Assembly: GCA_019637335.1 (NCBI GenBank)
Contig: JAHBVV010000012.1
Coordinates: forward strand, 62,001-126,000
DNA from: Candidatus Hydrogenedentota bacterium
GTDB taxonomy: Bacteria > Hydrogenedentota > Hydrogenedentia > Hydrogenedentales > JAEUWI01
Direction of reading: 5' to 3'
DNA length: 64,000 nucleotides
Position numbers and translations under genes: made by a program. Numbering within the stretch: position 1 is the first letter of the stretch; the number at the start of each line of letters is the position of its first letter. This document shows, one piece after another, positions 652-41,769 of this stretch. Under the pieces are notes generated by a model. It had not been told where the DNA came from. It ran no database searches and was given only the letters and a program-made list of their open reading frames with translations.

Positions 652-1056
652 TCATGATGGGGACACCACGGTAAGTTCCGCGAAATAGTCTCGATAGAAT
701 CCGTAATCCCGGGTAATGAGCCGGTCGCATTGTACCGCGGCGTGGCCCGCAACGAGAAAATCCGTGATAAGCCGTTGCCTTGAACCGCCCCGATCAATAT
801 AGCGTTTCCAATGCTGGCCGGCGACATGGGCGGCATCTCGATTCACGGGCGAGTAACCGATTCCGAGAATGCCCATGTTCTCGTCGAGCACTTCCCGGGA
901 AGGGAACAGGGCCCCGAGTTCGGCCCAAACGACTTCGCAGGCGACAACCGGGCCATCATTGATGCACTCGCGAAGCAATCTCGCCGACGCTTCGCCATAT
1001 ACGGGGTCGATCTTGAAGACATCGACCAGTACATTTGTATCAACGGCGGAAATCAT
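652..1056 (-). CDS. vapC: VapC-type PIN-domain toxin (endoribonuclease)
   Basis: A 134-residue PIN domain, the usual VapC length. The acidic residues expected to bind Mg2+ are visible: D6 in SAVDTNVLVD, E46 in VVWAELGAL, D99 in LITDFLVAGHA and D117 in LITRDYGF. VapC proteins cut specific RNAs, often initiator tRNA or the 23S rRNA sarcin-ricin loop; the target here cannot be read from sequence. The gene overlaps the upstream AbrB-type antitoxin gene by four bases (ATGA at 1053-1056), which implies translational coupling. All key residues are present, so the toxin looks intact, unlike the second VapC in this window at 48.0-48.4 kb. Confidence 0.9.
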   Translation of the reverse strand: MISAVDTNVLVDVFKIDPVYGEASARLLRECINDGPVVACEVVWAELGALFPSREVLDENMGILGIGYSPVNRDAAHVAGQHWKRYIDRGGSRQRLITDFLVAGHAAVQCDRLITRDYGFYRDYFAELTVVSPS

Positions 1057-30923: not shown

Positions 30924-32441
30924 TCAGCCCGGATGGCCCAGGCGCCGGGCCACGGCGCTTCCGAGTACGCCGGCGGCAAAGGCGCCCGCCGCGGAGAGGG
31001 GCATGATAAAGGTGATGGAGACATCGCTTTCGCTTCCGGTCAGGGCGTGATAGAGCGGTTGCCAGAAGGTCAGCACGATCCCGAGGAAGGCGCCGGCGAG
31101 GATCCCGGTCCAAGCGCCCGCGGGTCCCGTTCGGGGCGCGAAGAACACGAGGGTAAAAGCGACGAAGAGCGGTGCGGCGAGTACGGAACTTACGCGCACG
31201 GTGATTTCGAGGAGGTTGTTTCCGGGCATATAGGTCACGGCAAAGCTCATGACAATCGCCACGGCGCCGACCAGTACGCCGATTAACCTTGCTCGCCGGA
31301 CTTGATCCTGGTCGGTGAGACATCCCCGCGTGGTGACGGCGCGAAAGTCGGTTACCAGCACGGTACTGATCGAGCTGATGCCGCTATCGAGACTGGACAT
31401 GGCCGCGGCAAAGAGGGCGGAGACGACGAGTCCGGTAAGTCCGGCGGGCAGGACGGCGGCGATGAAATGGGGAAAGAGCTTGTCGGCCTGCGCGGCGAGT
31501 CCAAGGCCCGGATCGGGAAGTTCGCCTGGGAAGCGCAGGTAGAAACTGGTCAGCGCCATGCCCGTCAGGAATAAGATTGCGCCGGTAACGGCATCGCCAA
31601 TGATTGACAGCCCGAAGCTCTGCCGCGCGGCGCGGATATTCCGGGTACTGAGAAAGCGCTGGACCACGACCTGATCGCCGGTGGCGGTCATGATCCAGTA
31701 GGAGCAGCCGTAGATCATCACGCTGATGACGGACAGGCGCACGGCGGGGTCGAGGCTGAAGAGTTCCGGGGTTGGCCAATCCAGATCGGCGAGGGCGGGG
31801 TTGTGCCAGTCCGGCCACCAGGCGAGCGGCCCGCCGCACTTGACGGCGATAATGACGATGGAGATCGCCGCGCCGCCAACGAGCACGATGTACTGGATGA
31901 CGTCGGTAATCATGACCGCGCGTATACCGCCGAGCACGGTGTAGCTGGTTCCGATAGCGCCGACAGCGACGAGTACGGTGCGCGTGGGGAGTCCGGTCAC
32001 GGTGGCGACCGCGAAGCTGCACGTGTAGATGACGAGCCCCATCCAGAAGATGCGGGAGAGGATGAACATGGCGGAGGTGGCCATGCGAACCCCATTTCCG
32101 AATCGGGCTTCCAGCAATTCGTAGGCGGAGGTGGCCCGGTGCTGCATGATGCGGGGGATAATGAGATAGGCGATGACCGCGTAGGAGATGGGGGCGTGCA
32201 GCATCTGCCACATCCAGCCGGGGCCGTTCTTGATCATCTCGCCGGGCGAGGCGAGGTAGGAGATTGAACTGACGAGGGACGCAAGAATCGAGATTCCCGC
32301 CACGATGGGGTTAATGCCGCGGCCGCCGAGAAAGAACTCCTCGGTGGAGTGCTGGCGGCGCGAGGTCCACCAGCCGATGAAGAGCACGATCATGGCGTAG
32401 GCCGTGATAACGACCATGTCAAGAGCTTGCAAATGACCCAC
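30924..32441 (-). CDS. Sodium:solute symporter (SSS family)
   Basis: A 505-residue protein with about 13 transmembrane helices. GTG 32441 is chosen as start because AAAGG stands a few bases upstream and because SSS proteins begin with a short lead before the first helix (MVVITAYAMIVLFIGWW). Motifs are FFLGGRGINPIVAGISILASLVSSISYLASPGE broken across helix 1-2, GGIRAVMITDVIQY, and ALFAAAMSSLDSGISSISTVLVTDF near helix 8, where the Na+ ligands lie. It probably imports a sugar or sialic-acid-like compound given the sialidase upstream on the opposite strand, but SSS substrates cannot be read with confidence. Confidence 0.9.
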   Translation of the reverse strand: MGHLQALDMVVITAYAMIVLFIGWWTSRRQHSTEEFFLGGRGINPIVAGISILASLVSSISYLASPGEMIKNGPGWMWQMLHAPISYAVIAYLIIPRIMQHRATSAYELLEARFGNGVRMATSAMFILSRIFWMGLVIYTCSFAVATVTGLPTRTVLVAVGAIGTSYTVLGGIRAVMITDVIQYIVLVGGAAISIVIIAVKCGGPLAWWPDWHNPALADLDWPTPELFSLDPAVRLSVISVMIYGCSYWIMTATGDQVVVQRFLSTRNIRAARQSFGLSIIGDAVTGAILFLTGMALTSFYLRFPGELPDPGLGLAAQADKLFPHFIAAVLPAGLTGLVVSALFAAAMSSLDSGISSISTVLVTDFRAVTTRGCLTDQDQVRRARLIGVLVGAVAIVMSFAVTYMPGNNLLEITVRVSSVLAAPLFVAFTLVFFAPRTGPAGAWTGILAGAFLGIVLTFWQPLYHALTGSESDVSITFIMPLSAAGAFAAGVLGSAVARRLGHPG

Positions 32442-32676
32442 GGCTGCCTTTCTAATGGTTCCATAGCACGTGTGCTGCGCGGATTCGGTGTTGCCCGAAA
32501 GGGTAGCACAAGAGCACAAGCCAGTTTAGACACGGAACCTGGCCTGGCAAGCGCTGGGGAAAGCCTGGCCCGACCGGGAGGAGCGGGCCGATCGCGAGTG
32601 CCGCGGACACGGGCAGAGCATTTCGCTGACGGATCGGGTCCCTGGCGGCCCGCGTCCATACCGAAGGAGAGCCATC

Positions 32677-33801
32677 ATGATAGTTGAAGACAGCGGAGAA
32701 ATATTTACCGGGCGGGCCGGCGGGCCCTTTTCCAGCGCAACGTTCCCCATGGCCTGTGTGAGCCGAAGCGGGCGCTGGTTGTGCGCATTCCGCGCCGCGC
32801 CCGCCAAGGCGCCCCTCGCCGGCCAGCACGTGCTGCTCACCTGGTCCGACGACTGCGGAAAAACCTGGCGCCAGCCCTTTGCTCCTTTCTCCCCGCCCGA
32901 ACTGAACGGGCGGCCCGGCCTCTTCCGCTTTGCCGGCCTGACGCGCCTCCACGGCGGGCGCCTCATGGCCGCGCTGAGCTGGGTCGACCACAGCGAGCCC
33001 GACGCGCCCTACTTCAACGAGGCCACCGAAGGCCTCCTCGACACCCGCGTGTTCCTCAGCGTCTCCGCGGACGACGGAGTGACCTGGACAAAGCCGACCC
33101 CCGCGGAAACCGCGCCGTTCAATGGCGTGCCGACGCCGCTTACCGGCCCCATCGTGCGATTCGAAGACGACGAACTCTGTTGCCCCATCGAGATCAACAA
33201 GCCCTACAACGACACCGCGCCGTGGGAGCACCGGTCCGTCCTCTTCTTCTCCACCGATGGCGGCGGAAGCTGGCCGCGCCACTGCGTCGTCACCGAAGAC
33301 CCCGAAAACCGCGTTTTCTATTGGGATCAGCGCATCTCCCTCCTCCCCGACGGCCGCCTCTTCAACGCCTTCTGGACCTACGACCGCGCCGACAACCGCT
33401 ACCTCAACATCCACACCTGCTTCTCCGACGACCGCGGGCGCTCCTGGACCGCCCTGCGTGATTCCGGCGTCGCCGGACAGCCCGGTCCCGTCTTCGCCCT
33501 GGAAGACGGCGAGCTCGTCATGCCCGTGGTGGATCGCAACGGCCCCACCCGGATCACGGTGCGCCGCAGCGAAGACAACGGCACGACCTGGCCCGACGCA
33601 AACACCCTCACGATCTACGAGGCCGCGGGCGACGCGCAATCACGCGACAAGGCATCCATGCAGGACGCCTGGGCCGAAATGAGCGCGTTCTCCACCGGTC
33701 TGCCGCACGTGGCCTCCCTGCCCGGCGGCGGCGGCGTCCTCGTCTACTACGCCGGCGACTCCACCGACCACACCGGCATCCGCTGGGCGAAGATCGAGTA
33801 G
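32677..33801 (+). CDS. Sialidase/neuraminidase-fold protein, no signal peptide
   Basis: A 374-residue six-bladed propeller protein. GAAGGAG stands upstream of the ATG. Asp-box repeats are visible: LTWSDDCGKTWRQ, SVSADDGVTWTKP, FFSTDGGGSWPRH, TCFSDDRGRSWTA and RSEDNGTTWPDA (S-x-D-x-G-x-T-W). Exo-alpha-sialidases share this fold, with an arginine triad, but many Asp-box proteins of this family in environmental bacteria have other substrates. No signal peptide is seen, unlike the 45.4 kb sialidase. It is divergent from the symporter gene. Confidence 0.75.
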   Translation: MIVEDSGEIFTGRAGGPFSSATFPMACVSRSGRWLCAFRAAPAKAPLAGQHVLLTWSDDCGKTWRQPFAPFSPPELNGRPGLFRFAGLTRLHGGRLMAALSWVDHSEPDAPYFNEATEGLLDTRVFLSVSADDGVTWTKPTPAETAPFNGVPTPLTGPIVRFEDDELCCPIEINKPYNDTAPWEHRSVLFFSTDGGGSWPRHCVVTEDPENRVFYWDQRISLLPDGRLFNAFWTYDRADNRYLNIHTCFSDDRGRSWTALRDSGVAGQPGPVFALEDGELVMPVVDRNGPTRITVRRSEDNGTTWPDANTLTIYEAAGDAQSRDKASMQDAWAEMSAFSTGLPHVASLPGGGGVLVYYAGDSTDHTGIRWAKIE

Positions 33802-33895
33802 AACCGTCTCGGCTTTTCAATCGCCAATCGGCCATCCACGCGAGCCAACGAGGACTTTCCAGGCTCGGGTCATTGGCCCGCGCGAATCCGCCGGC

Positions 33896-34966
33896 CTATT
33901 CCCCCAGGTGCGCCTTCAGGAACGGCAGTGTCTTGCGGTTACTCCACTCGTGGACGCCCTCGAAGAAATCGCTTTCCAGGTTGCCCGGCGCGCCGAGCAG
34001 GCCATACACCGGCTCCAGGGCCGCGTAGGCCGCGCGCGTCGCCGCAATGGGAAAGATGCGGTCTTCCGTCCCGCTGATCACAAGCATCGGCCGCGGCGCG
34101 ATCAATGCCGCGACGTCTCGCATTTCGCCCTGGCTCATCAGGCCGGGCACCGTGTTACAGATGCAGTGGTGAATGCTGTAGATGGAGTCGCGAAAGGTGC
34201 AGTAATACCCCGCCACGACGGCCGCGCGAACCCGATCCTCCAGCGCGGCGAAAAACAGCGCCGTCGTGCCCCCGCCCGACAACCCCGCGCACGCAATGCG
34301 CTCCGGATCCACTTCCTCCCGCGTCTCCAGGAAGTCCAGCAGCCGCATCGCGTCCCAAACCCGCATCCCGATCGGCGTGCGGTTCACCAGGAAGCCCGCC
34401 CGGCTCAGCCGCTCGCAACTGTGCGGCTTGTCGTTCGCCGTTTCGTTCCAGCCCCGCTGAACCACGGCCAGCACGGCGTAGCCCTGTTCCGCGAAGTACG
34501 GCGCGTAGTCGAGCTGGTGATTCGCGCCCTTTTCCTTCTCCGCGTCGCTGCCCTCGCGGATATATGGGTTGATCCCGCTGTGACCGTGGAAACACATAAT
34601 CGCCGGACGCCGCCCCGGCGCGTTCTTCGGCGCGTAGTAATACGCGGGCGCCCAGTAGTCCGGCTCCGTGCGCACGTACACCTTGCGGCGGGTGAAGGAC
34701 TCCGTCTCGATGACGTCGCTCTCGTCCCAGCGCGTCTCCAGGGGCAGCCGCTCGGGCCAGTCGCCCAGCAGCGCTTCAAGCTTCTCCCGGAACGCCTCCC
34801 GCCAGGCCACGTGGGCCTCGGGCGAATCCGCATCCCACGCCAGCGCGGGCGCGACGGTCTCCGCATACGCGTCCAGATAGGGGATCACCTGGCTGTTCCC
34901 CGGCTCGCCCGACGCCGGCGCCGCCGCGGCGGCGGCCAGCAGCGCCGCAATCACCAATCGTTTCAT
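33896..34966 (-). CDS. Exported acetyl-esterase / dienelactone hydrolase-type alpha/beta hydrolase
   Basis: A 356-residue protein with signal peptide (LVIAALLAAAAAAPASG). The order resembles the Abhydrolase_7/acetyl xylan esterase-like group: WDESDVIETESFTRRKVYVRTEPDYWAPAYYYAPKNA (in pieces), RPAIMCFHGHSG for the oxyanion region, MRVWDAMRLLDFLETREEVDPERIACAGLSGGG with Ser nucleophile in G-L-S-G-G-G, and ISGTEDRIFP with the Asp. The His is probably in VHEW near the C-terminus. Likely removes acetyl groups from glycans; the substrate is inferred. An 94-base gap separates it from the sialidase stop. Confidence 0.8.
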   Translation of the reverse strand: MKRLVIAALLAAAAAAPASGEPGNSQVIPYLDAYAETVAPALAWDADSPEAHVAWREAFREKLEALLGDWPERLPLETRWDESDVIETESFTRRKVYVRTEPDYWAPAYYYAPKNAPGRRPAIMCFHGHSGINPYIREGSDAEKEKGANHQLDYAPYFAEQGYAVLAVVQRGWNETANDKPHSCERLSRAGFLVNRTPIGMRVWDAMRLLDFLETREEVDPERIACAGLSGGGTTALFFAALEDRVRAAVVAGYYCTFRDSIYSIHHCICNTVPGLMSQGEMRDVAALIAPRPMLVISGTEDRIFPIAATRAAYAALEPVYGLLGAPGNLESDFFEGVHEWSNRKTLPFLKAHLGE

Positions 34967-35005
34967 GGCAGCTGTCCTCCCGGCGCGCGCCCAGCGGCGC
35001 GCCCG

Positions 35006-35134
35006 TTACCCGTGCGCTTCCGGCCCCTTGGGCAGAAGCAGCATGTGTTCCATCGTCTTGAAAATCTCCTCCAGGTACTCGGGGATCGCTTTCGCACTCC
35101 CGGGCAGCGTATAAACCAACCCGCTTCCGGGCAC
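35006..35134 (-). pseudogene. Diverged duplicate of the moaB 3' end
   Basis: Read on the minus strand, the frame ending with TAA at 35008-35006 encodes GSGLVYTLPGSAKAIPEYL followed by EEIFKTMEHMLLLPKGPEAHG. The intact MOSC-MoaB gene at 36445 ends GQGLIYTLPGSTRAIPEYL and GEIFKTMEHMLLLLKGLDAHG. About 32 of 40 positions are identical. No upstream part of moaB is present, only about 40 codons. The fragment sits right after the stop of the Kelch gene, so the Kelch gene is bracketed by two copies of the same 3' end. It cannot encode a working enzyme. Confidence 0.75.
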
Positions 35135-35165
35135 CGCGGGCGCGTATCGCTTTCCCGAACGCCCG

Positions 35166-36410
35166 CTACTCCCATGGGCGCTCGGTGATGGCGCCCTTCA
35201 GCACGAATTCGGGGTGGTGTCCGAAGTATTCTCCTTCCCAGACAAAGCCTGCGGTTTCCCCGGGGAACAGGTACATCGTATCGCCCCGTACGACGGTAAT
35301 GCTTGCCACATCGTCGAAGGGCAGCGGCGTCGCGGTTCCGAAGGTGTCGGTCTTCGTATCGTAGACATAAAAGTGATTATAGTAGTGGGTGGATTCGAAA
35401 GTCGGGTGCTGTTTCCACGTCCGTTCAATCCGCTGGGGTGTGCCATAGGCGGGTAATTCCCTGCCCTCGGGATCGAGCACGACGCCGTATTGGTAGCCGG
35501 CGGGCAGCAGAATATAGCGGTTCTGGAAGACCAGCGAACCGGCGCTGGTGCCAGATCCCGAGAACGGCAGGTCGCGCAGGCGGGTCCACGTGTCCGTTGC
35601 GGGGTCGTAGCGCCAGTTATCCACCACGTTCGCGTAGCCGCCATTGGCGAGCATGGTGATACCGCCCAGTATATAGATCTGGCCGTCTATTACCGCGGTT
35701 CCTGCGAGACAGCGCGGCGTGCCCGGGCACGGGGACGCAGGAACCCAGCCCGCTGCGGGGTTGTCCGTGTCAAAGGACATCATCCGTGCACCCAGCCGCG
35801 GCACGGTTCCGGTGCGGTCCTGCAGGCAGTAGAAGCGCTGCGCATCGTAGTCGGCGCCACCCAGGGCGTAGATCCGGGATCCGATCGCCGCCATTCCGGT
35901 CCAGCAGGTGGGTGATGGCAGGGGCGGCAGCGGGGACCATTGCCACGCGTCGCCCTCGTGAGCCAGGCGGTAGCCGTCGGTGTAGGTGTAGGGTTCGTCA
36001 TAGCTGAACCCTCCCCAGAGGTAGAGTGCATCCCGCACGACAACACCCTGGCCGGCCTGCCGGGGCGCGCCGGGGAAGTCGGGTATGGGCGTCCACCCGG
36101 CCCCTTCGTCCCGCAGATTGAGCGCCCAGGCCTTATTCAGGAAGCCGCGCGGATACCGGCCGGGCTTCCAGTCATCGTCGGATCCGCTGCAGAAGCCGAG
36201 GACATTGACGAGCCAGCCACCGATTTCGGCCACGTGGTTGTCCTGCATGCCCTGAGGCAGGTGTGGTCCCGCGCTCCATTGCATTTCCAGCATCTGGGGA
36301 AGGGTCGCCTGGTCCTGCGGCGCGTGCGACGGGGGTTCCGCGAGCGCTCCCGGGTGCGGAAAGCTCAGCAGCAGCGCGACGAGTTGGGTAAGAATCGGTA
36401 AACGACGCAT
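35166..36410 (-). CDS. Exported Kelch-repeat protein
   Basis: A 414-residue protein with signal peptide (LPILTQLVALLLSFPHPGALA). ATG 36410 has only weak ribosome binding site matches. Several Kelch units are visible: LYLWGGFSYDEP, IYALGGADYDAQR, IYILGGITMLANGG with VVDNWRYDPATDTWTRLRDL, and FYVYDTKTDTFGTATPLPF. This predicts a beta-propeller, a fold used for sugar binding or sialate mutarotation; similarity to NanM-like proteins is possible but not shown. It lies between the MOSC-MoaB gene and a degenerate copy of the MoaB C-terminus, and has no obvious link to cofactor synthesis. Confidence 0.75.
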   Translation of the reverse strand: MRRLPILTQLVALLLSFPHPGALAEPPSHAPQDQATLPQMLEMQWSAGPHLPQGMQDNHVAEIGGWLVNVLGFCSGSDDDWKPGRYPRGFLNKAWALNLRDEGAGWTPIPDFPGAPRQAGQGVVVRDALYLWGGFSYDEPYTYTDGYRLAHEGDAWQWSPLPPLPSPTCWTGMAAIGSRIYALGGADYDAQRFYCLQDRTGTVPRLGARMMSFDTDNPAAGWVPASPCPGTPRCLAGTAVIDGQIYILGGITMLANGGYANVVDNWRYDPATDTWTRLRDLPFSGSGTSAGSLVFQNRYILLPAGYQYGVVLDPEGRELPAYGTPQRIERTWKQHPTFESTHYYNHFYVYDTKTDTFGTATPLPFDDVASITVVRGDTMYLFPGETAGFVWEGEYFGHHPEFVLKGAITERPWE

Positions 36411-36444
36411 TTCTTCACTTCTCCCGGTTGTCGGTCGCCCAGAA

Positions 36445-37383
36445 TTATCCATGGGCGTCGAGGCCCTTCAGCAAGAGCAGCATATGCTCCATCGTCTTAA
36501 AGATTTCCCCGAGATATTCGGGAATGGCTCTGGTGCTCCCGGGCAGCGTGTAGATGAGCCCCTGGCCCAGCACCGCCGCCACACTGCGGCTCGCCAGGGC
36601 CATGGGCATGGATTCCCCGTACTTCAGGCGGATGAAATCCATGATTCCCGGTATCAGCTTGTCAGCAAATTCGGTCACAACGTCCGGGGTAATATCGCGC
36701 GGGCCGACCCCCGTCCCGCCGGTCGTGATGACCACGTCGGCGCCGCTCTGCCGCGCATTGGAAAGCACCGTCGCGATGGCCTCGCGCTCGTCCGGGATCA
36801 CCTGGGATTCCCCCCAAAGGCCCCAGTGGTGATCCGCGCACCACTGCTCCAGCAGCGCGCGGACCGCCGGCCCGCTCGTATCCGCATATTCGCCCGCGCT
36901 CGCGCGATCGCTCACGGTGATCACGTGCGCGCGCAGGATCCGCTGCTGGTGGCGCACCGGTTCGCCCCGCCGGATCTCGCCGCCAAGCGCCACCCGCCCG
37001 AAGACGCCGAAGTCGGAGAGCGGGCAGTGCGATCCCGGCTCACACAACGGTTGCCCCGCCTCGCTGACGCGCTTTCCGATCCGCGTGACTTCGATGATCG
37101 CGTCGCCCATCTCCAGCGTATCCAGCAACCGCACCGCGGCAAGCCCGTCGCCGCGCAACAGGATGTTCTCCCGGCCCATCCCCGGCAGCGCGTGCTCCTC
37201 GACGTCCGGGGCGCCCGCGCGCGCCGCCGATTCGTGCATCATGCTCACCTGCCGGAGCCCCGGGCCCGCGTGGTGATCGCCCGCAATGCCCGCCGCCGTG
37301 GCGATCAGCGCCTCGGCCACCGTGTGGGGCGCGCCGGGCGCCGCCGCGTAACTCAATCCGGCAACAGTCAAACGTTGGTGCAT
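36445..37383 (-). CDS. MOSC domain fused to MoaB/MogA molybdopterin domain
   Basis: A 312-residue fusion. Residues 1-145 resemble a MOSC domain (TVAGLSYAA, GIAGDHHAGPGLRQVSMMH, GENILLRG-like region and RVALGGEIRRGEPV). Residues 150-312 are a MoaB/MogA domain with VITVSDRASAGEYADTSGP, the MPT-binding VVITTGGTGVGPRDITPDV and the C-terminal PGSTRAIPEYLGEIF. MoaB/MogA adenylates molybdopterin before metal insertion; MOSC domains carry metal-sulfur or bind cofactor. It lies 24 bases downstream of moeA on the same strand. The first MOSC cysteine could not be fixed: the Cys at about residue 115 (PLCEPG) and about 120 (HCPLSD) are candidates. Confidence 0.85.
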   Translation of the reverse strand: MHQRLTVAGLSYAAAPGAPHTVAEALIATAAGIAGDHHAGPGLRQVSMMHESAARAGAPDVEEHALPGMGRENILLRGDGLAAVRLLDTLEMGDAIIEVTRIGKRVSEAGQPLCEPGSHCPLSDFGVFGRVALGGEIRRGEPVRHQQRILRAHVITVSDRASAGEYADTSGPAVRALLEQWCADHHWGLWGESQVIPDEREAIATVLSNARQSGADVVITTGGTGVGPRDITPDVVTEFADKLIPGIMDFIRLKYGESMPMALASRSVAAVLGQGLIYTLPGSTRAIPEYLGEIFKTMEHMLLLLKGLDAHG

Positions 37384-38731: not shown

Positions 38732-39007
38732 TTAGTAGCGGCGCGGCGGGCGCTGCGGGCGATCCGGGCGCGGGCGCGCCTCGTTCACGTTCATCGTGCG
38801 CCCTTTAACGTCCTTGCCATTCAGGGCGTCAATCGCCTGTTTGGCCTCGTCGTCCACGGGCATTTCCACAAAGCCGAACCCCTTGGAACGCCCGGTCTCG
38901 CGATCGCTGATCACGCTGGCGCGGGACACCTCCCCGTAGGCCCCGAAGATCTCTTTCAAATCCTCATCCGTCACGTTATACGATAAGTTCCCTGCGTAAA
39001 TGTTCAT
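38732..39007 (-). CDS. Small RRM-type RNA-binding protein
   Basis: A 91-residue protein with one RNA recognition motif. RNP2 is IYAGNLSY (residues 3-10) and RNP1 is KGFGFVEM (residues 42-49). The tail after residue 75 is Arg/Pro-rich. Such short RRM proteins are common in cyanobacteria and planctomycetes and respond to cold in some species. The 378-base gap upstream (39008-39385) contains no gene and carries a 10-bp inverted repeat close to the start, possibly for control. Confidence 0.9.
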   Translation of the reverse strand: MNIYAGNLSYNVTDEDLKEIFGAYGEVSRASVISDRETGRSKGFGFVEMPVDDEAKQAIDALNGKDVKGRTMNVNEARPRPDRPQRPPRRY

Positions 39008-39385: not shown

Positions 39386-39961
39386 CTAAGCATCCTCCCC
39401 GCCCGGACGGATCCGCGCGACTTCCTCCCATGTATTCACATTGCGCACCAATTCCATCGCAATTGGAACGGTCCGAGGATGAATTTCTTCAATCACCGCG
39501 CGCACGCGGCGCTCGCCCGACGCCAGCCGCACAAGAATTACCTCCGCCAGGCACCGGTGATAGAAGCCAAACAGCGGTTGCAGGCGCCCTCCTTCCTCTC
39601 GGGGAACAACACAGCGCGCACCCGCTGTTTGCGCCCAAAGTCGGCGAATCAGCGCGATCGGAATCTCGGGAATGTCCGTGGCGACGACGAAATTCCACGG
39701 GCAGCGCGCGCGTTGCAATGCCGAGGCGATCCCCATGAGGGGCCCCTGATCCGGCTGCGCGTCGGGCACGGTGGGCAGACCGAGCGCGGCGATCGGCGCC
39801 GGATCGTTCGTACTTACCAGGATTTCGTGAAAAAAAGGCCGGATTTGCGTGGCAATGTGCCCGATCAGCGGACGTCCACACCAAGGGATCAGCCGCTTGT
39901 CCCGTCCCATCCGGCGGCTCTGGCCCCCCGCCAGGATAATCGCGCCCGCGTCAAACGTCAC
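39386..39961 (-). CDS. mobA: Molybdenum cofactor guanylyltransferase MobA
   Basis: A 191-residue protein. The nucleotide motif LAGGQSRRMGRDK is at the start, GPLMGIASALQRA and VVATDIPEIP in the middle. MobA couples GMP to Moco to make the guanine dinucleotide form used by DMSO-reductase-type enzymes. Its start overlaps the 3' end of the MoaE-MoeB fusion gene by 11 bases, which indicates one operon. Sequence length is close to the E. coli enzyme. Confidence 0.93.
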   Translation of the reverse strand: MTFDAGAIILAGGQSRRMGRDKRLIPWCGRPLIGHIATQIRPFFHEILVSTNDPAPIAALGLPTVPDAQPDQGPLMGIASALQRARCPWNFVVATDIPEIPIALIRRLWAQTAGARCVVPREEGGRLQPLFGFYHRCLAEVILVRLASGERRVRAVIEEIHPRTVPIAMELVRNVNTWEEVARIRPGGEDA

Positions 39962-41501
39962 GGCCCGGCCGGCGGGCGCCGGCGGCGCAAAGTGCGGCGG
40001 CCCCCCCTTTCAGGGAGTACACTCCCGTATGGCCGGCCTGGCGCAATGCCATGGCGAGATACCGGCTCCGCACGCCCCGGGTGCAGCACAGGACCCACGG
40101 CGCGGCGGGATCGGGGCGCAGCGCGCCAATCTGAATTGTGCTGGCCGGTAGATGGAGCGCGCCGTTGGGCAGCGAGTCCGCCGCTTCGTCCTCCTCCCGG
40201 ATATCCACCAGGGTGTACACCCGCAACGCCTCGCCCAGTTCGGCGGCGTCAATCTCGACCGGAGCCTCCGACGCCAGGGTGCGTATCGACGGCGCGCCGC
40301 CACAGACGGGACAGGCCGGGTTGCGCGCGCCGCGCACCCGGTGGGCGCCGAGGGTCAGCAAATCGAAGAACAGCGTGTCGCCCGCCGGATTGCGGGGCAG
40401 ATCGAGCAGATGCTTGAGGGTTTCCATGGCCTGCAGCGCGCCGAACACACCCGGAACGGCCCCGATCACCCCCGCCTCGGCGCAATTGCCGATACAGCCC
40501 GGCGACGGCATCTCCGGCCAGAGGCAACGCAGGCACGGCCCGCCGGGGTCTGGATCGTACACGAACAACTGCCCCTCGAACTGGTAGATGCTCGCCTGCA
40601 CGAGCACTTTCCGGTGGATCACGGCGGCGTCGTTCAGTAGAAACTTGGTCTCAAAGTTGTCCGACCCGTCCACAATAACATCGTAGTCGCGCACGATGGA
40701 TTCGACGTTGTCCGCGGCCAGCCGCACCGGATGCGCGCGCACCTGAATAAAGGGATTCAGCGCGCGCAGCCGCCGCGCGGCGAGCTCCGCCTTCTCCCGG
40801 CCCACGCCATCCGCGTCAAAGAGGATCTGCCGGTGCAAATTCGATGCGTCCAGGGTATCGTTCTCCGCGATGCCCAGCGCGCCCACGCCGGCCGCCGCCA
40901 GGTACTGCAACGCCGGGGATCCCAGGCCGCCTGCGCCGACCACCAGCACCCGCGCGTCGCGCAGTTTCTGCTGCCCCGCCGCGCCCACCTCGCGCAGTTG
41001 CAGCTGCCGCGCGTAGTAGGCGGCCTCCGCCAGCGCGGGCGGGTGATCATGCGCGTGTTCATGCGCGTGGCCGCGTCCCGCCCCGGCGCAGCGCTCGCAA
41101 TTCACCCAACCGGAGTCGCCGTCGGTGTAGTACTCCTTCTTCCAGATCGGCAGCCGGTGCTTCACCGCGTCGATGATGTAGCGGCAGGCGTCAAAGGCTT
41201 CCCCGCGGTGCGCGGAGCACACCCCCACCCACACCGCCATATCTTCGAGCCCGAGGTTCCCGGTCCGGTGCACGCAACGCGCCTCCAGCAGGCCGAAACG
41301 CCGCGCCGCTTCCGCGAGGATCGCGTTGCCCTCGCTCAGGCACACCGCCGGATAGGCCTCGTACTCCAGGCGCTCGACCGTACGGCCTTCGTTGTGGTTG
41401 CGCACCCAGCCCTCAAACGACACGAAGCCGCCCGCTTCCACATTCCGCACACTGGCGCGTAGCGCGGCGGGATCCAGCGGCGTGTCCGACAGCGTGAACA
41501 T
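39951..41501 (-). CDS. MoaE-MoeB-rhodanese fusion protein
   Basis: A 516-residue fusion of three molybdopterin synthesis parts. ATG 41501 lies four bases after the moaD stop. Residues 1-135 match MoaE, the large subunit of molybdopterin synthase (SFEGWVRNHNEGRTVERLEYEAY, IIDAVKHRLPIWKKEYYTDG with the active lysines). A His-rich linker (HAHEHAHDH) follows. Residues 155-400 are a MoeB/ThiF adenylylase (VVGAGGLGSPALQYL, zinc cysteines in GPCLRCLW and CPVC). Residues 425-516 are a rhodanese domain with active loop CCTRGVRS. MoeB activates MoaD and the rhodanese could supply sulfur, as in human MOCS3, so adenylation, sulfur transfer and synthase would sit in one chain. Confidence 0.9.
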   Translation of the reverse strand: MFTLSDTPLDPAALRASVRNVEAGGFVSFEGWVRNHNEGRTVERLEYEAYPAVCLSEGNAILAEAARRFGLLEARCVHRTGNLGLEDMAVWVGVCSAHRGEAFDACRYIIDAVKHRLPIWKKEYYTDGDSGWVNCERCAGAGRGHAHEHAHDHPPALAEAAYYARQLQLREVGAAGQQKLRDARVLVVGAGGLGSPALQYLAAAGVGALGIAENDTLDASNLHRQILFDADGVGREKAELAARRLRALNPFIQVRAHPVRLAADNVESIVRDYDVIVDGSDNFETKFLLNDAAVIHRKVLVQASIYQFEGQLFVYDPDPGGPCLRCLWPEMPSPGCIGNCAEAGVIGAVPGVFGALQAMETLKHLLDLPRNPAGDTLFFDLLTLGAHRVRGARNPACPVCGGAPSIRTLASEAPVEIDAAELGEALRVYTLVDIREEDEAADSLPNGALHLPASTIQIGALRPDPAAPWVLCCTRGVRSRYLAMALRQAGHTGVYSLKGGAAALCAAGARRPGRDV

Positions 41502-41505
41502 GGCC

Positions 41506-41769
41506 TCAGCCTCCCGCGACCGGCGGAATGAACACGACGTGGTCCCGGGCCTGGAGCGGTGTGTCCCACGGACAAAACGCGTCGTTGATCGCCACCTTGA
41601 GCTGGCTGGACGCCAGGCTGAACCCGTGGGCCGCGCGCAGCGCCGCATACAGTTCCGCCGGCGTTGCGGCGTCGCTTTCCAGCCACTCTTCCGACAGGCC
41701 GCGCTGCTCCCGCAGCAGGGCGTAATACCCGATCCGGATTGCTTTCGTCGTATCGCTCACGCTGTTCAT
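41506..41769 (-). CDS. moaD: Molybdopterin synthase sulfur carrier MoaD
   Basis: An 87-residue ubiquitin-like protein ending in V-A-G-G, the diglycine that becomes a thiocarboxylate. Start at 41769 gives IGYYALLREQRGLSEEW; upstream codons from 41811 look unrelated. HVVFIPPVAGG closes the fold. It lies 22 bases after moaC and four bases before the MoaE-MoeB-rhodanese gene, so carrier and activating enzyme are made together. Confidence 0.92.
   Translation of the reverse strand: MNSVSDTTKAIRIGYYALLREQRGLSEEWLESDAATPAELYAALRAAHGFSLASSQLKVAINDAFCPWDTPLQARDHVVFIPPVAGG

Follow-up and report, generated by a model that had tools for sequence, protein, structure and literature searches.

The DNA analysed here, referred to as the window, is a stretch of 64,000 nucleotides from a Candidatus Hydrogenedentota bacterium, whose closest kin with names are Hydrogenedentota MAGs; it was compared with three congeners (G001, G002 and G003). 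On the minus strand of the window, moeA is followed by a MOSC-moaB gene, a Kelch gene, a fragment of moaB and an esterase gene, beyond which lie a sialidase gene on the plus strand and a symporter gene on the minus strand. The features of the locus are as follows.

36445-37383 (-): intact MOSC-MoaB fusion gene of molybdenum-cofactor biosynthesis, 312 aa (open reading frame; Pfam MoCF_biosynth, 2.3e-24)
36445-36576 (-): intact moaB 3' end, first copy of the repeat (repeat alignment)
35166-36452 (-): Kelch-repeat gene, NanM/YjhT-like (open reading frame from 36452; Pfam NANM, 2.1e-21)
35006-35137 (-): fragment matching the moaB 3' end, left from another, diverged moaB (alignment, protein search, codon-position pattern)
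33896-34966 (-): alpha/beta-hydrolase, acetyl-xylan-esterase-like (Pfam AXE1, 1.7e-11; Abhydrolase_7)
33802-35165 (no strand): extra DNA relative to G001 between the stop codons of the convergent sialidase and Kelch genes, holding the fragment, the esterase and a spacer of 94 nt (comparison with G001 locus L033)
32677-33801 (+): BNR-repeat sialidase-like gene, convergent to the Kelch gene (Pfam BNR_2, 6e-16)
30924-32519 (-): sodium:solute symporter, the outer end of the block common with G001 (Pfam SSF, 3.9e-40)

The MOSC-MoaB protein also matches NCBIfam molyb_syn and is 61-64% identical to the full-length genes of the three congeners; the Pfam match of its MOSC domain is weak (0.0059) and below the curated cut-off. 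The likelier start of the Kelch gene is an ATG at 36410, and its match to the NCBIfam YjhT mutarotase falls below the family cut-off. The esterase starts 39 nt behind the stop codon of the fragment. For sialic acid in Hydrogenedentes, a literature search brought up nothing relevant. The molybdenum-cofactor cluster also holds, at 39951-41648 (-), one open reading frame in which MoaE, ThiF/MoeB and rhodanese are joined in a three-part fusion (Pfam MoaE 8.9e-35, ThiF 9.5e-73, Rhodanese 7.6e-08), and, at 38732-39007 (-), a single-RRM RNA-binding protein found in the same place in G001 (90% identical) and G003 (80%). A PIN-domain gene at 652-1056 (-) (Pfam 7.4e-08), with a GC content of 0.56 that is low for the window, is possibly the toxin of a toxin-antitoxin pair.

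The original prediction held that the 3' end of moaB recurs in the same orientation with about 80% amino-acid identity, and this was borne out. When aligned at the DNA level, positions 36445-36576 and 35006-35137, both on the minus strand, form an ungapped direct repeat of 132 nt in which 95 bases are identical (72%), and the fragment is 79% identical to intact moaB over 43 residues. The predicted bounds needed correction, since the repeat comprises 44 codons including the stop and ends at 36576 and 35137, rather than 40 codons ending at 36569 and 35134 (minus strand); weak homology of the fragment to moaB may reach about 35152. The longest exact run common to both copies is 14 nt and lies inside the conserved TLPGS codons. 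The Kelch coding region, from 35166 to about 36410, does stand between the two moaB ends, as had been described, and 28 nt separate its stop codon from the point where the ungapped repeat begins.

The claim that this likeness is not due to chance also holds. The best other placement of the moaB 132-mer on either strand of the window gives 60 identical bases, against 95 for the fragment. A search of the 7.16 Mb genome (55 contigs) with the MOSC-MoaB protein returned two matches and no more: moaB itself and the fragment, the latter over residues 265-312 (73% identity, E 4.7e-15). These results rule out chance similarity, and the two matches rule out a genome-wide repeat family, so that the repeat is not one found at many unrelated loci, the finding that the original prediction had named as contrary to it.

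The locus in relatives shows which part of the window is additional. In G001, the symporter, sialidase, Kelch, moaB, moeA, RRM protein, mobA and moaE/moeB genes follow the order and orientation of the window, and the symporter and sialidase are each 70% identical to their window counterparts. The Kelch gene of G001 has moaB as its immediate neighbour on one side and the sialidase on the other, where 4 nt separate the two stop codons (locus L033), and neither the fragment nor the esterase is present there. A tail-to-tail sialidase-Kelch pair is also found in G014, which belongs to another family of the same order. Because G001 has the same order without the fragment, and because the Kelch-sialidase pair recurs in G014, the Kelch gene is a resident neighbour of moaB, and the DNA that is extra relative to G001 is 33802-35165.

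The wider catabolic cassette beside moaB is variable. In G003 a ferredoxin reductase directly follows moaB with no catabolic genes between, and moaB has no adjoining Kelch gene. The esterase of G003 is instead immediately upstream of Kelch, which is the reverse of the Kelch-fragment-esterase order of the window. This order was joined across two contig ends, given that the two parts of the G003 Kelch gene stand at the ends of contigs C128 and C229 (L083, L084), which are apparently neighbours with about 15 nt missing; the joined order reads esterase-Kelch-UbiB-sialidase, with a UbiB-like gene separating Kelch and sialidase. No genome examined has moaB directly followed by this esterase. No fragment precedes the esterase orthologues in the loci read for G003, G028, G039, G044, G050, G062 and G067, the check in G062 and G067 being by BLAST only (E cut-off 1e-3).

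Two further observations concern these loci. The catabolic block of G001 sits between the ferredoxin reductase and moaB, and the window genome carries the reductase block on a separate contig; comparison of G001, G003 and the window genome places a rearrangement breakpoint near moaB at this block of NDP-sugar epimerase, Rrf2 regulator, truncated haemoglobin and ferredoxin reductase (L033 1-6318, L032 1-2410, L178), whose gene names were read from the sequence and not from a family search. In G062, a MAG of another family, the esterase orthologue on contig C742 (L204) is 74% identical to that of the window, compared with 71% for the orthologue of the congener G003, which makes it a candidate for transfer or a binning error; it adjoins Gfo/Idh-like genes (named by eye).

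The original prediction explained the repeat by insertion of the Kelch gene, with duplication of the moaB end. The geometry is indeed that of an element attaching at a gene's 3' end, with an intact gene, cargo and a displaced 3' end in direct orientation, and the Kelch gene occupies the place of the cargo. However, the Kelch gene is not confined to a duplicated moaB end, as G001 has the same moaB-Kelch junction without any fragment, and the pairing of Kelch with the sialidase extends to the other family represented by G014. The Kelch gene is a single catabolic gene without a recombinase; no Phage_integrase match was found on the contig of the window (C12), and no recombinase was present among the neighbouring open reading frames scanned. 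Terminal repeats, a target duplication and paired element ends were sought at the locus and none were found, and the literature search for elements located in protein-coding genes yielded no result. An integrative element would be expected to carry an identical core repeat at both ends, whereas the divergence of the two copies is that of coding sequence and leaves no long identical stretch between them. The synteny of G001 and G014 thus rejects the Kelch gene as an insert, neither element ends nor, on C12, a Phage_integrase match spoke for a mobile element at the locus, and the duplicating insertion that had been proposed now appears extremely improbable.

The manner in which the two copies differ also bears on the origin of the fragment. 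The 36 differences between the fragment and moaB fall 5/6/25 on codon positions 1, 2 and 3, using column counts on the alignment, and cause 9 amino-acid changes. The neutral expectation, obtained by placing the same number of random base changes in 5000 simulations, has a mean of 21.6 changes (sd 2.2, minimum 14), and the copies have therefore diverged under protein-level selection. Their 72% DNA identity is within the 69-75% range between species of the genus for the same stretch, and dS between them is saturated. Because the differences pile up at third positions with few amino-acid changes, the fragment once belonged to a complete gene: through most of the time since the copies separated it diverged as part of a working moaB, and its truncation came later. 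This pattern also leaves the Kelch-insert reading unsupported, because a duplicate made by insertion should be identical if young or neutrally decayed if old, and the fragment is neither.

At present the fragment frame is still open but lacks an ATG start; a GTG at 35134 is its one early codon that resembles a start, and proline occupies three positions at which the congeners hold Met, Leu, Ile or Val. The three proline substitutions and the missing recognisable start suggest that the fragment is now decaying. Both moaB copies end in His-Gly-stop, a one-codon C-terminal extension found in none of 18 relatives, of which 17 end in His-stop and one in His-His-stop. Since this extension is common to both copies, their last common ancestor probably postdates the divergence from the sampled congeners, and the moaB tree weakly groups the fragment with the intact copy (bootstrap 74, 44 codons). 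A foreign origin was also sought in base composition, where GC3 is not informative: it is 0.77 for the Kelch gene, the fragment and the last 44 moaB codons alike (window median 0.80), so an incoming and a resident side are not separable by this measure.

The leading explanation, held tentatively and at somewhat under even chances, is that a one-sided illegitimate exchange displaced the 3' end of a once-complete second moaB (moaB'), and that the fragment is this end, now decaying. The exchange would have joined two diverged forms of the moaB neighbourhood, one ending moaB-Kelch and the other reading moaB'-esterase. Incoming DNA may have paired over the shared molybdenum-cofactor genes at one end in a homology-facilitated step, and its other end would have been joined without homology, pushing the 3' end of the resident gene downstream. 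The joint would lie just behind the Kelch stop, inside moaB', which would have kept its last 44 codons, with the esterase behind it surviving. Either moaB-Kelch arrived or it stayed, and the moaB' end and the downstream esterase would have been left behind it. The second moaB would have come from another lineage, and a possible second Kelch copy would have been lost; the 94-nt spacer next to the sialidase shows no trace of one. The truncated moaB homologue stands behind a newer complete moaB and its partner gene, as expected of a displacement scar, and the codon-position pattern (5/6/25) and the low number of amino-acid changes (9 against 21.6) fit a displaced copy that diverged as an intact gene before truncation. 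The G001 block without fragment or esterase, the reversed esterase-Kelch order of G003, the between-species distance, the common His-Gly-stop, the three proline positions and the 39-nt gap from fragment stop to esterase start, as in an operon moaB'-esterase, count for it as well, and it is the most economical mechanism for the moaB' remnant. The moaB-Kelch parent type is present in G001. The moaB'-esterase parent is hypothetical because no examined genome has moaB directly before the esterase, and this absent arrangement is the main gap in the explanation.

The common extension also suggests that the copies are closer to each other than to the sampled congeners, which counts against the one-sided exchange, and a duplication inside the lineage explains it equally well. 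The original prediction had offered tandem duplication with loss as its alternative, and this remains a live explanation, with perhaps one chance in three. A moaB-esterase-Kelch run would have been duplicated in tandem within the lineage, followed by complementary losses, of the esterase from the first unit and of Kelch and all but the 3' end of moaB from the second, giving moaB-Kelch-moaB remnant-esterase. This would account for the reversal of esterase and Kelch relative to G003 with the remnant exactly between them, and both the moaB-Kelch order of G001 and the esterase-Kelch order of G003 are sub-orders of the assumed ancestor. That ancestor, however, is absent from every genome examined, and copies as diverged as those of different species, with saturated dS and no sign of a recent common origin, would require a tandem pair kept intact for very long before the loss, roughly the time since the species of the genus separated. 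The remnants of other lost genes that such a history should leave are also missing, including any Kelch similarity in the 94-nt spacer. Insertion of a small module comprising the moaB' 3' end and the esterase, brought from a relative by plain illegitimate recombination and placed where the 3' ends of Kelch and sialidase converge, would explain why the extra DNA relative to G001 is exactly this pair, and the sialidase-Kelch gap of G003 likewise holds an unrelated gene (UbiB-like). It is nonetheless unlikely, needing two illegitimate joints and leaving to coincidence that a moaB end landed 1.4 kb from moaB. That the fragment was retained because it serves some role itself, such as encoding a short peptide or acting as an esterase leader, would suit its open frame and its position before the esterase, and is very doubtful: inspection by eye revealed no credible start codon with a ribosome-binding site, proline stands where congeners have Leu, Ile, Val or Met, and the fragment precedes no other esterase orthologue examined.

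The feature is real and of an ordinary type: a pseudogene that remains from a moaB which was either displaced or duplicated. It is the scar of an old local gene rearrangement and not the edge of a mobile element. As a readable trace of how a gene was displaced at a housekeeping locus of an uncultured phylum, it illustrates that such remnants can resemble an element boundary, and it leaves views on mobile elements unchanged. It also provides a worked case in which codon-position divergence tells a once-working second gene from a duplicate made by insertion.

Elements that integrate at the 3' end of protein-coding genes leave a displaced end at their far side. The present locus resembles them in its intact gene, intervening DNA and displaced 3' end in direct orientation, but differs in having no integrase, no long identical attachment core and an intervening gene that is resident in relatives. 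Tandem duplication-random loss is a gene-order model of animal mitochondria (e.g., PMC3283314, PMC5745709), with which the locus shares reversed neighbouring genes and a pseudogene remnant at the junction; unlike the mitochondrial cases, its copies have diverged to the between-species level, no further remnants are present and the setting is a bacterial chromosome. In Vibrio T6SS clusters, successive insertions of effector modules have left orphan immunity genes together with displaced 3' ends of effector genes, and homology-facilitated illegitimate recombination has been proposed as the cause (PMC5361080). Here too, what survives behind a newer homologue and its partner is the 3' end of a gene together with the partner downstream of it, in the same orientation, although the displaced gene is the housekeeping moaB, the survivor is a catabolic esterase, one event only is seen and the parent arrangements were not both found. 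A broader reading, which we consider improbable, is that the moaB 3' end has served as a landing point time after time, with catabolic modules of the genus added there by repeated one-sided exchanges that replaced moaB and left displaced 3' ends; if true, the locus would be like the Vibrio effector arrays, but at a housekeeping gene.
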